Source: Brevibacillus composti
GTDB taxonomy: Bacteria > Bacillota > Bacilli > Brevibacillales > Brevibacillaceae
Direction: 5' to 3'
Length of the DNA: 64,000 bases
Assembly: GCF_016406105.1 (NCBI RefSeq)
Contig: NZ_CP066308.1
Coordinates: 3,211,501 to 3,275,500, forward strand
The position numbers and the translations under genes were made by a program. Below are positions 54,304 to 58,773 of this stretch, piece by piece (within the stretch, counting starts at the first letter, position 1; the number at the start of each line of letters is the position of its first letter). Below the pieces are notes generated by a model. That model did not search any database. It was not told where the DNA came from and saw only the letters and a list, made by a program, of their open reading frames with translations.

Positions 54304-55230
54304 TTAGAAAACGCGCTGGAGAAAATGCGCCAGAAATTTGGCGTGATCCACCTCGAGACAGACGTCGGCATTGGGGGGAAATTCCGGCTGGCTGCGGCGA
54401 TCCGCAATGGTGCGGGCATCGGACAGTCCCCCCGAGGTGTCTACCGCAATATACATCGGAGAGGTACGGACAAACGAAGGATCGATCGCGACCCCCACGG
54501 CGAGCGGATCGTGCAGGCCGCAGCCCCGTACATTGCCCACTTTGGCGTAAGCGTCCATGTAAAACTGGCACATCTCCGCAAAGCTGCGGCTCACATCCGT
54601 CCCCAGCTCGCGCCAAGTCTCCAGATGCTCCCGGGTAAGCAGCGTCTGCATCGTCACATCCAGTCCCACGACCGTGATCGGGATTCCCGACCGGAAGACG
54701 AGATCGGCGGCTTCCGGGTCCGCGCAAATATTGGCCTCGGCCACAGGCGTCCGATTGCCGGGGACCGTGACCGCCCCTCCCATTATGATGACTCGCTTAA
54801 CCAGCTTGGTCATCTCCGGTTCGGCCATGATCGCCGTCGCCAGGTTGGTCAGGCTGCCTACCGTGATGATCGTCACTTCCCCGGGATGCAATCTGGCTTG
54901 CTCAATCATGTAGACAGATGCCTTTTCTCTTCGCGCAGCCGTGCGAGGCGGGGGCAATTGGATGTTGCCCAGCCCATTTTCTCCGTGAAACAGCTTGGCC
55001 TTCTCCTTCAGCTCGCGAAACAGCGGGCGGCTCGCTCCCGGGAAGACCGGAATCTGGCTGGCCCCCAAAAGCTCGAGAATTTGCAGCGTATTTCTGGTCG
55101 CTTCCTCGACCGTGATATTGCCGAACGTCGTCGTCACGCCCAATATCTCCAGCTCCGGGGAATGGACAGCATAGGAGAGGGCCAGAGCGTCATCGATGCC
55201 GGTATCTACATCTATCAATACTTTTTTCAT
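54304..55230 (-). CDS. Nucleoside hydrolase (IUNH family)
   Basis: The 308-residue enzyme hydrolyses nucleosides to base and ribose. The calcium/ribose motif DVDTGIDDALAL (about 7-18) is intact. LHDPLAVGVAIDP (about 241-253), with the conserved His-Asp, and ITVGSLTNLATAIMAEP are also present. Specificity (pyrimidine versus broad) cannot be set from sequence. Its ATG overlaps the stop of the degenerate paralog by 4 bases, so both are in one transcript. Confidence 0.93.
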   Translation of the reverse strand: MKKVLIDVDTGIDDALALSYAVHSPELEILGVTTTFGNITVEEATRNTLQILELLGASQIPVFPGASRPLFRELKEKAKLFHGENGLGNIQLPPPRTAARREKASVYMIEQARLHPGEVTIITVGSLTNLATAIMAEPEMTKLVKRVIIMGGAVTVPGNRTPVAEANICADPEAADLVFRSGIPITVVGLDVTMQTLLTREHLETWRELGTDVSRSFAEMCQFYMDAYAKVGNVRGCGLHDPLAVGVAIDPSFVRTSPMYIAVDTSGGLSDARTIADRRSQPEFPPNADVCLEVDHAKFLAHFLQRVF

Positions 55231-56042
55231 CTCGCATCCTCCCTGTCAGCGTCGGCCGCACGCCGCAAGATTTGCTCCACATCTGCCTCGAGGCAGACCT
55301 CCGCATCATGTCCGACCCGCGGAATGGCTCGTCTATCGGCCAGCAGGGCGCCGCGGGAGAGCTGACTCTGGCACTCTACCGATAGCTTCAGCCGTTCTCT
55401 TTGGACGAGCTCGGGATGCAGGGCGGCCATGACGGCAATACTCGCCTCCAGACGATCCAACTGCTCCGGAGCCAAACTGCCGGTCCGGGTCGCGTCCAGG
55501 GGGACGATCAGCAGCGGAAGATTTGCCGCCAGCACGTAAGCGGCCGCTTCCGGGTCGGCGTAGACATTGGCTTCCGCGACCATCGTCACATCGCCCGGGA
55601 CACAGATGGCCCCTCCGTGAAAGACCACGCCGGCAAGCTTGCCAGGCAGTTCGGGATCGATCGCCAACGCCTTGGCCAAATCGCTCAAAGCACCGAGCAC
55701 CACCACCACCAGTTCGCCCCGATGCCGGCTCGCCTGCGAGACGATCAGCTCCGCTGCTGTAAGGGGCAGAGCGACAGCCCCGTCTGTCCGCACGCCCGCT
55801 CCCACATGGCCGCTGCACTGGACAGGCGACAGCTGTGCAGCCTCGCATACGGCCAGCGGCACCTCTTGCAGAGCGGCGGCCTGCAGCAGTACTTCCGTCT
55901 GCCGAACATCCTCCGCCAGATGGGACGGTGCAAACGCAACGCCCGCCAGCTTCACGCCGGGGGATTGCAGGGCAAGACGCACGGACAGCAGCCGCTTCGA
56001 ATCCACTCCGATCAAGAGCAAGGTTTTGCCAGATTTTGTCAT
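55227..56042 (-). CDS. Degenerate nucleoside hydrolase paralog
   Basis: The 271-residue frame aligns by eye with the nucleoside hydrolase downstream (for example VVVLGALSDLAKALAIDPEL and GGAICVPGDVTMVAEANVYADPEAAAYV). The N-terminal DxDxxxDD metal motif is replaced by IGVDSKRLLSVRLAL, and the segment after it is shortened. The C-terminal His-Asp motif is also missing. It cannot bind calcium in the usual way, so it is either a non-catalytic partner or a decaying gene. The frame is uninterrupted. ATG at 56042; a GAGG site lies upstream. Confidence 0.75.
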   Translation of the reverse strand: MTKSGKTLLLIGVDSKRLLSVRLALQSPGVKLAGVAFAPSHLAEDVRQTEVLLQAAALQEVPLAVCEAAQLSPVQCSGHVGAGVRTDGAVALPLTAAELIVSQASRHRGELVVVVLGALSDLAKALAIDPELPGKLAGVVFHGGAICVPGDVTMVAEANVYADPEAAAYVLAANLPLLIVPLDATRTGSLAPEQLDRLEASIAVMAALHPELVQRERLKLSVECQSQLSRGALLADRRAIPRVGHDAEVCLEADVEQILRRAADADREDAR

Positions 56043-56234: not shown

Positions 56235-56618
56235 ATGACAAAAGAGAACAAGCACGGCATGTATTCCGATAGCAGCAGCCCACAGCAAGAATTGCTGGCT
56301 GACTTACAGCGCCAGGTGGTCGACACGCTGATCCGCCACAAGAAAAAGCCTTATTTGCCTGTTTGGGGGGAGCTTTTCTGCACACTGAGAGAGATGATGA
56401 AAATCGGCACGAAAACCAAGCAGGACATCCTGATCTATCCGATCTGGCCTGCCGGCTCTCTCTATTTCAAGCATCAGAGCGGCTTGTTTCTAATCCATAT
56501 TCCCGATCCCGGCCTGACGATTTCTCTATCGACAGACCAGCTGATCGAGTCATTGATTGAGGGACGCTTTATGCCAGCGGCCCCATCGCCAGAAAAAGCC
56601 TCCCTCGTTTCGGAGTAG
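56235..56618 (+). CDS. Unknown 127-residue protein
   Basis: The soluble protein starts MTKENKHGMYSDSSSPQQEL. Its core (LPVWGELFCTLREMMKIGTK, then ILIYPIWPAGSLYFKHQSGL) looks like a compact alpha/beta domain. No family is recognised. The ATG at 56235 has only a distant AAGGGGGAGGG, so the true start is uncertain; ATG 56259 is another choice. It is followed by a good terminator, which supports it as a transcribed gene. Confidence 0.6.
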   Translation: MTKENKHGMYSDSSSPQQELLADLQRQVVDTLIRHKKKPYLPVWGELFCTLREMMKIGTKTKQDILIYPIWPAGSLYFKHQSGLFLIHIPDPGLTISLSTDQLIESLIEGRFMPAAPSPEKASLVSE

Positions 56619-56699: not shown

Positions 56700-56726
56700 C
56701 AAAAAAAAGCCCGGCTTTCGCCGGGA
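56700..56726 (-). terminator. Minus-strand terminator below a 24-codon frame
   Basis: CCCGG and CCGGG arms around a CGAAAG-type tetraloop are followed on the minus strand by eight T. It lies about 20 bases after the stop of the small frame at 56746. Confidence 0.85.
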
Positions 56727-56745
56727 AATAGAGGGTTAGTACGTA

Positions 56746-56820
56746 TTATTCACGTGAATAATCTCTCTCTATCATAGTTTGTTCTCTACGCAGAAACCAG
56801 CTGTATTTATAGGTAATCAT
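56746..56820 (-). CDS. Possible 24-residue small protein
   Basis: ATG at 56820, preceded by GGAG at a spacing of nine, opens a frame reading MITYKYSWFLRREQTMIERD and four more residues to TAA. A strong terminator follows about 20 bases later. Directly upstream is another terminator-like hairpin whose T run touches the ribosome binding site. The stop lies in a perfect 18-bp palindrome (56745-56762). No family recognised; evidence is architecture only. Confidence 0.4.
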   Translation of the reverse strand: MITYKYSWFLRREQTMIERDYSRE

Positions 56821-56837
56821 ACCTAGAATCTCCAATG

Positions 56838-56909
56838 AAAAAATAGAGCGGCTCTCCTGCACAGTTTCGAGCCGCTGCTGCAAAGTTACGAACTCCCCAA
56901 GTTCGCTTA
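56838..56909 (-). ncRNA. Candidate small RNA or leader with two hairpins
   Basis: On the minus strand a TACAAT -10 (56916-56921) is followed by a CGAACT/AGTTCG hairpin (56889-56905). Next comes a perfect 8-bp stem AGCGGCTC/GAGCCGCT (56847-56876), followed by TATTTTTTC. This gives a roughly 70-base transcript with an intrinsic terminator. It could stand alone or act as an attenuator for the 24-codon frame just downstream. The -35 is poor. Confidence 0.4.
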
Positions 56910-57025
56910 CTACAGATTGTACTATGTAATTGGCTTATCGAAAAGTGTCGTCTTTTGGATTCGCATGAAAAAATGGAAATTTCATTGAAAGTTAGGAGAA
57001 AAAGACCGGGAGATTCGCCCCTTTT

Positions 57026-58773
57026 TTAGAGGCGCGGACGCGTACGGTTCGTCGGCGCAGCCTGCATCGGATCGTCCGGCCAGTAATGTTTCGGATAGCG
57101 CCCCTTTAAATCTTTTTTCACCTCAAAGTACGTCGTCTTCCAAAAACTGGACAAGTCCCGTGTCACTTGCACCGGCCTCTGGGCGGGTGACAGCAGATGC
57201 AGCGTCAGCGGAACGCGCCCCCTCCAGATGCGCGGCGTATCGGTCAACCCGAACATCTCCTGCAGCCTCACCGCCAATACGGGTGCCGCCGGATCCGTGT
57301 AGTCGATCGGTATGCGCGAGCCGCTCGGCACTTCGATGTGAGAGGGCGCCTCTTTCTCCAGCTCCCTGCGCTGTTCCCAGGAAACCAGGCCGAGCAAAAT
57401 CTCAGAGAGTGCCAGCCGCTGCAGGTCCGCCACGCTTTTCATGCCGCCGATATGAGGTCCCAGCCAGTCGGAGAGCGATCCCCGCAAGCTGTCATCGGAG
57501 ACATCCGGCCAATGCGAGGGGTCCTGCAGGTGCAGAAACTGCAAACGCCGCTGCAACTGTCTCGCCTGCTTGCTCCACGGCAGCAGTTCCAAGCCCTCGG
57601 CGGCAATGCCGGAGAGAAGCGCCTGTACGGTCTCCTCTGTATCGAGGTCGGTTATGCTGGACTCCCGCAGGATGAGAGCGCCCAGCTTTTTGCGCAGACG
57701 GGCGCGCACGCTCTTTTGCCCGGAGTCCCAATAGACGACCCGCTCTTCTTCGATCTGATCTGCAAAGGCACGCTCCACCTCATCCAGCTCGAGCGGAGCG
57801 GCCAGATAAATTTTGCTCTCGCTCCCCTGGTCATCCAGCTCAGCCGCCGCCAGATAGGGGGCGCCGGAGATGGCCTGCGCGCTTGGGAGAACCGCACCTC
57901 TGCCATTGCTCAGGAAATAGCGGCCACTCTCCCGGCGCTGGGCGATCCGGTCGGGAAAGGCAAGGGCGATCAAGAGTCCGCACGAAGCGATCTCGCCCTG
58001 ATTCGCTGCCAGGCCGTAGGCTCGACTCGCACCCGCCCGCTCTGGCTGGCGAGCCCGTCTATCCCCAACTCTTTCAGGCGGGTTTCCACTCTGCGGATTT
58101 CGCCTGCGCCTGGCAGGAAGGTCAGGATATCCCCGGATTCCTCGCGAAGCGCATGCGAAATGGCGTTCACCACTTTTTGTTCCAGGGACTCTTCCGTGCG
58201 CCGTTTGAGATAGTGAGTCTGGATGGGATAGGCGCGTCCCTCGCTCCTGACGATGGGGGCTCCGCCGAGCAGTGCCGCGACAGGCTCCGCCTCCAGCGTC
58301 GCCGACATGACCAGGAGGCGCAGATCCTCCCGCAATAGCTCGCGGGATTGCAGGCAGAAGGCCAAACCCATATCCGCCTGCAGACTGCGCTCGTGAAATT
58401 CATCGAAGATCACCATGCCGACGCCATCCAGGGCGGGGTCCGACTGCAGCATCCGGGTCAAAACCCCTTCGGTAATCACTTCGATCCGCGTGGACGGCCC
58501 TACCCGCGTATCCATTCTGACCCGGTAGCCGACCGTCTCCCCCACCTGTTCTCCCAGCGAGGCGGCCATGTAGCGCGCGGCCATTCTGGCGGCCAATCGG
58601 CGCGGCTCCAGCATCAGGATCCGGCGTCCCTCCATCCAGGGCTGATCCAGACAGGCAAGCGGCACGCGCGTCGTCTTGCCCGCACCGGGCGCCGCGATCA
58701 GCACGGCGCTGGCGTGGGTGTGAAGTCGTTCCAGCAATTCAGGCATGACGTGATCGATCGGCAATGTCTTCAT
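57026..58773 (-). pseudogene. hrpB: ATP-dependent helicase HrpB, central part deleted
   Basis: The N-terminal part (58773 to about 58056) carries Walker A (AAPGAGKTTRVPL), DEFH (FDEFHERS) and motif III (MSATLEAEPV). Near 58056 the frame jumps to the HrpB C-terminal region, recognisable as NQGEIASCGLLIALAFPDRI and continuing to 57026 with the HrpB_C domain (PIDYTDPAAPVLAVRLQEMF). Helicase motifs IV-VI and about 250 residues are missing, and the two parts are in different frames. Full-length HrpB has about 830 residues. It starts 4 bases inside the helD stop (ATGA). Confidence 0.88.

Follow-up and report, generated by a model that had tools for sequence, protein, structure and literature searches.

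Multicopy small RNAs have been described in Gram-positive bacteria, as in Listeria, where five copies of LhrC depend on the two-component system LisRK, according to the part of the report that is available (PMC4132741). In Bacillus subtilis, the G-rich loop of RosA pairs with the C-rich tract of RoxS in a sponge-like manner, as far as the accessible portion of PMC8464778 goes. Here we analysed a stretch of 64,000 nucleotides of Brevibacillus composti DNA (the window), on the minus strand of which a short intergenic region is best explained, quite probably in our judgement, as two tandem genes for small regulatory RNAs, S1 and S2, that would be transcribed independently. Both are conserved, probably non-coding RNA genes with paralogues, and they most likely act in trans as regulatory RNAs, S2 being turned on by an activator. 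By sequence comparison, each unit ends in a terminator and has a separate promoter-like sequence, and no frame is conserved across the S2 promoter; the hallmarks of trans-encoded small RNAs, namely a short intergenic and non-coding unit with an intrinsic terminator and its own promoter, are therefore present, the promoters being recognized from their sequence. The preliminary description had listed on this strand a -10 element, two hairpins, a T run, a ribosome binding site, a 24-codon frame and a second terminator, all of which are present, and had proposed either a small-protein gene under attenuation or a pair of small RNAs, of which the latter agrees with the conservation of both units, their own promoters and terminators, and the paralogues found for each. 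Its list did not include a second promoter and dyad, and since these lie inside the supposed 24-codon gene, we distinguish two transcription units (Table 1).

Table 1. Features of the S1-S2 locus, numbered by position in the window
Feature	Position	Strand	Remarks
Element upstream of S1, GACGACACTTTTCGATA	56936..56952	-	Conserved; includes the -35 position TTTTCG (56939-56944)
S1 -10 box TACAAT	56916..56921	-	17 bp from TTTTCG
Predicted small RNA S1	56838..56909	-	26/26 genus genomes; models R1/R3; 5' end placed from the -10 box
S1 hairpin 1, CGAACTTGGGGAGTTCG	56889..56905	-	UUGGGG at 56895-56900
S1 terminator hairpin	56847..56876	-	14-nt loop GAAACUGUGCAGGA (56855-56868); T run 56838-56846
Dyad TAGGTATGATTACCTA	56810..56825	-	Putative S2 activator operator; sole exact match in the window's genome
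24-codon frame	56746..56820	-	Judged a chance frame; outside the function
S2 -35 position TGGTTT (weak)	56794..56799	-	17 bp from the -10 box
S2 -10 box TATGAT	56771..56776	-	41 bp from the dyad centre
Predicted small RNA S2	56701..56766	-	20/26 at locus A, one eroded; model R2; predicted 5' end
18-bp palindrome	56745..56762		Contains, on the minus strand, UUCACGU, a conserved S2 motif, as part of UAUUCACGU (56752-56760)
Conserved S2 motif CGUACUA	56737..56743	-	Followed by a pyrimidine tract
S2 terminator hairpin	56710..56725	-	T8 at 56701-56708
127-aa gene, convergent	56235..56618	+	At most 1.5 kb from S1 in 26/26 genus genomes

A blastn search of 60 genomes recovered the region from the genome of the window and from 25/25 other genomes of the genus; outside the genus it was found in 0/10 other family genomes and in one of 24 further genomes (G049, E 0.0097, 27 bases). 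At this position, termed locus A, S1 could be extracted from every genus genome and was followed by S2 at a gap of 71-219 nt wherever S2 was present, counts that are not independent, since loci of one type are orthologues. The sequence GACACTTTTCGATA, within the element upstream of S1, was common to 26/26 locus-A copies, and CUGUGCAG sits in the long loop of the S1 terminator. Among copies of S1 the stems vary while UUGGGG and the terminator-loop GCAG stay constant (in the model-fitted alignment, whose rows were chosen by the model, GCAG in 24/24 and TTGGG in 23/24); hairpin 1 was predicted for locus A and for part of the other copies, but not for every paralogue. A pattern for S1, which the window itself does not match, retrieved 13 named records, 12 from Brevibacillus and one from Anoxybacillus sediminis. 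Natural deletions were seen at two of the locus-A loci: L016 (G021) had lost the -10 box and the 5' part of S2 and retained the dyad and terminator, and L003 (G008) had no S2 body and retained a dyad-like sequence and a terminator. The product of the convergent 127-aa gene had no match in Pfam or NCBIfam and no named relatives in a protein scan. Elsewhere in the surroundings, an hrpB-type helicase gene (57026-58773, minus strand) appears broken: its N-terminal DEAD part (267 aa) and its C-terminal HrpB_C part (315 aa) occupy different frames, and by the usual length of HrpB the segment between them seems to be missing. Two adjoining inosine-uridine nucleoside hydrolase family genes occupy 54304-56042 (minus strand).

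Like S1, S2 combines varying stems with constant motifs, UUCACGU and CGUACUA; of 15 sense rows, again model-chosen, TTCACGT was found in 14 and CGTACTA in 14. The perfect 18-bp palindrome reported earlier is real and is the longest in the window, a modestly unusual length (about 0.24 expected per 64 kb by a simple estimate), and what had been described as a palindrome at the stop codon is the predicted 5' end of S2. We also considered CACGTG within it as an operator and rejected this, the symmetry being gone at other loci where UUCACGU persists.

The S2 promoters mostly have a poor -35 region, and a dyad with the consensus TAGGTA-N4-TACCTA is phase-locked to their -10 box. With dyads placed by score against this consensus, 35/36 S2 loci had the best AGGTA-type dyad 53-59 bp ahead of TTCACG; in the eroded L016 the distance to the equivalent point was 36 bp. 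A hexamer agreeing with the -10 consensus at 4/6 positions or more began 41 bp past the dyad centre in 34/35 S2 promoters, among them those of the window and of L002, whose RNA start is displaced by 5 bp. A 39-bp spacing also scored in 27/35, because AT runs overlap. The 41-bp spacing is as would be expected of an activator site, and its constancy suggests that the dyad is bound by an activator, which would switch S2 on; S1 would respond to another upstream element. At locus C, the half-sites had changed jointly in L095 (AGGCA...TGCCT) and showed no joint change in L093. The exact 16-bp dyad pattern occurred 25 times in the 26 genus genomes, against 10 for the reversed control, with 20 occurrences at S2 loci (14 read in locus DNA and 6 assigned from how far they lie from S1 and the S2 blocks) and 5 away from such loci, and 5 times in 13 other family genomes, against 6 for the control. 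In L173 (G024:C24) and L176 (G020:C4), an exact S2-type dyad immediately follows a T run resembling that of a terminator, a short way downstream of what we take to be a codY-like gene, and perhaps marks another unit under the same regulator as S2.

Folding was evaluated against shuffled sequences. The 226-nt stretch folded better than 200/200 shuffles (z -3.73) and S2 alone better than 199/200, and the window's S1 alone surpassed 189/200, being equalled or beaten by 11/200. In model-fitted alignments, two-sided changes were observed in 14/14 S1 pairs and 6/12 S2 pairs, and 95.6% (S1) and 96.3% (S2) of cells could pair, compared to 33-54% and 26-53%, respectively, for slid partners. In plain MAFFT alignments of locus A, two-sided changes appeared in 1/14 S1 and 2/12 S2 pairs, counts that were reached by 267/500 and 341/500 shuffles, respectively; the proportion of paired cells and the covariation score were each reached by at most 1/500 shuffles. 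The conserved secondary structure typical of trans-encoded small RNAs is accordingly present on model-fitted alignments, weak on unfitted ones and weak for the 5' hairpin of S2, where little covariation was seen, the structural support for S2 lying mainly in the terminator stem. In the window's S2, it is the two ACGU blocks, not the arms of the palindrome, that pair in the minimum-energy structure, so the 5' fold is ambiguous there.

Covariance models were used to search for paralogues. Model R1, built on S1, matched 29/39 family genomes at E 0.01, and model R3, built on S1 with paralogues and hence on some of the copies that it later counted, matched 30/39 at E 0.001; every one of the 26 genus genomes had two matches or more. 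The second S1 of the window's genome lies at C1:1531771-1531830; that of G008 (L123) is weak (E 6.5e-4), with GCAA replacing GCAG. Outside the genus, 4/13 family genomes matched, G028 and G031 clearly, the former with three copies, two of them in tandem, so that two further genera of the family hold clear candidate copies of S1; the weak matches in G033 and G060 are without UUGGGG and were not accepted as members. In a class sample, 30/398 genomes matched, only one of them (G261) outside the family, and this one, with both S1 motifs missing, was rejected as well; weak members may have been missed in this sample, because the class searches used stricter filters. Model R2, built on S2, matched 20/39 family genomes and 20/398 of the class sample, all within the genus. 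The S2 copies at loci B and F were not among the R2 matches and were found by motif searches; with both approaches S2 was detected at several loci in 23/26 genus genomes and was not seen in G008, G010 and G022.

It is reasonable to infer that the constant loops act in trans on mRNAs, by analogy with LhrC (PMC4132741) and with RoxS and FsrA (PMC8464778), or bind a protein: each RNA would present its constant loops and linkers to such a partner, and the pyrimidine tract of S2 could mask ribosome binding sites. A search of the genus for the complement of both S2 blocks gave 42 matches (26 for the reversed control), of which 40 were the S2 loci themselves and 2 lay inside genes, so no target carrying both blocks was seen in the genus; 13 other family genomes gave 7 matches, as did the reversed control. 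That S1 titrates an RNA-binding protein instead of pairing with mRNAs appears rather unlikely to us: its several copies and its constant loops on changing stems fit recognition by a protein equally well, but no partner was identified, and GGA, the core of CsrA-type recognition, is not kept in the S1 loops.

We also considered a relationship in which S1 is the sponge of S2, its G-rich loop pairing with the C-rich tract of S2 as in RosA-RoxS (accessible text of PMC8464778). The complementary character of loop and tract and the repeated adjacency of the two RNAs would suit such a role, which we nevertheless consider unlikely, since 23/30 S1-S2 pairs (from 25/31 loci: 19/19 of locus A, 4/9 of locus B and 2/3 of locus C) bound less well than 200 shuffled S2 sequences did on average, with a best z of -1.11, and since S1 persists where S2 was not found. 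Direct S1-S2 pairing is thus not supported, and G-rich complementarity to a C-rich RNA beyond chance, as expected of a RosA-type sponge, was not found with S2 as the sole partner tested.

The arrangement of the copies bears on whether S1 could be a leader or riboswitch, with its terminator controlling how far transcription reads through into S2. The order is S1-S2 at locus A, S1-S2-S1 at locus B (complete by motif scan in G006, G009, G020, G021 and G023) and, by the same scan, S1-S2-S1 in G017 and G007 and S2-S1 in G001 at locus C; a further S1-S2 pair occurs at G016:C65, and at locus F (G003, G009, G023) no S1 was seen beside S2 in the 1.4 kb analysed. S1 stands ahead of S2 at loci A, B and C as well as at G016:C65 and has a structured 5' part, as a leader would, but some copies lie downstream of S2, the gap between the two ranges widely at locus A, S2 has its own predicted promoter, and S1 is present without any S2 being found in 3/26 genus genomes and in other genera. 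Because S1 was found without S2, and S2 without a nearby S1, S1 is unlikely to be a mere leader of S2, and we rejected this reading, to which we give very little credence. Locus F and G016:C65 aside, the neighbouring frames vary between locus types, and the units do not always stand upstream of one kind of gene, as a cis-acting leader or riboswitch would. The arrays in L093 and L172 lie a few hundred bases or less from tRNA genes. As regulatory RNAs, the several copies of S1 and S2 would set dose or answer different signals.

The attenuated small-protein gene, in which the S1 terminator would control a 24-aa peptide with the second terminator at its end, can practically be set aside: the window does have GGAG, ATG and stop in order, but the ATG occurs there only (1/19 aligned loci, in a table of loci other than the eroded L016 and six without S2), the other 18 have early stops, the frame overlies the phase-locked S2 promoter, 222/1000 dinucleotide shuffles produced an ATG frame of this length or more on the same strand, and at some loci an S1 copy follows S2. 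The conservation by which the preliminary description had proposed to judge this frame is absent, and the 24-codon frame is a chance frame.

Rfam 15 gave 0 matches in the window at the gathering cut-off, and with E up to 10 the region gave 4 matches (E 1.9-8.8), all far under the cut-off and none credible. Ten further loci returned two tRNAs alone, beside and not at the RNAs; at two loci searched with E up to 1, Spot_42 was placed over S2 of L093 with E 0.85 and a score of 20.4 bits, where the cut-off is 80. No match was obtained for a phage or plasmid origin. Among the papers listed for Brevibacillus and small RNAs, no title or beginning of an abstract described S1 or S2, passing mentions of predicted small RNAs in genome papers being possible, and Brevibacillus is absent from the main text of a paper on 50 bacterial genomes (PMC11109978), as far as that text was available. 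The papers listed by our literature searches, whose coverage takes in few subscription papers, included no small-RNA study of Brevibacillus. S1 and S2 represent two apparently uncatalogued RNA families, genus-wide and with paralogues. Brevibacillus is a genus of practical use. That two unlike RNAs are repeatedly adjacent, and that a phase-locked dyad occurs mainly with one of the two, opens a straightforward way into a new regulon, with the dyad-binding protein to be sought first and the targets second. More tentatively, S1 and S2 may form a two-RNA module that was duplicated as a unit and serves a common process, with an S2 activator near-exclusive to S2 promoters.

Among regulators, NreC belongs to the LuxR/NarL family and has the motif TAGGG-N4-CCCTA. 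A GC-rich palindromic site at activated promoters, as given in the available part of the source, makes NreC-type control a lead only for S2, the half-sites of whose dyad are AGGTA instead. Compared with known families, the S1 loops carry UUGGGG and GCAG, and S2 has one pyrimidine tract. S2 resembles RoxS/RsaE and FsrA in having a C-rich tract before the terminator (PMC8464778, portion available), but it has no Rfam match at gathering level, and its constant part is CGUACUA while the C tract varies. S1 shares with RosA an accessible G-rich loop (same portion of PMC8464778), and differs in that its pairing with S2 was no better than that of shuffled controls. Like LhrC, as described in the available part of PMC4132741, S1 and S2 are multicopy RNAs of a Gram-positive bacterium; unlike LhrC, they have no Rfam match, their motifs are UUGGGG, GCAG, UUCACGU and CGUACUA, and two unlike RNAs recur together. 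Collectively, the kind to which S1 and S2 are assigned, the bacterial regulatory small RNA, is already known, and the pairing of the two is an unusual arrangement.
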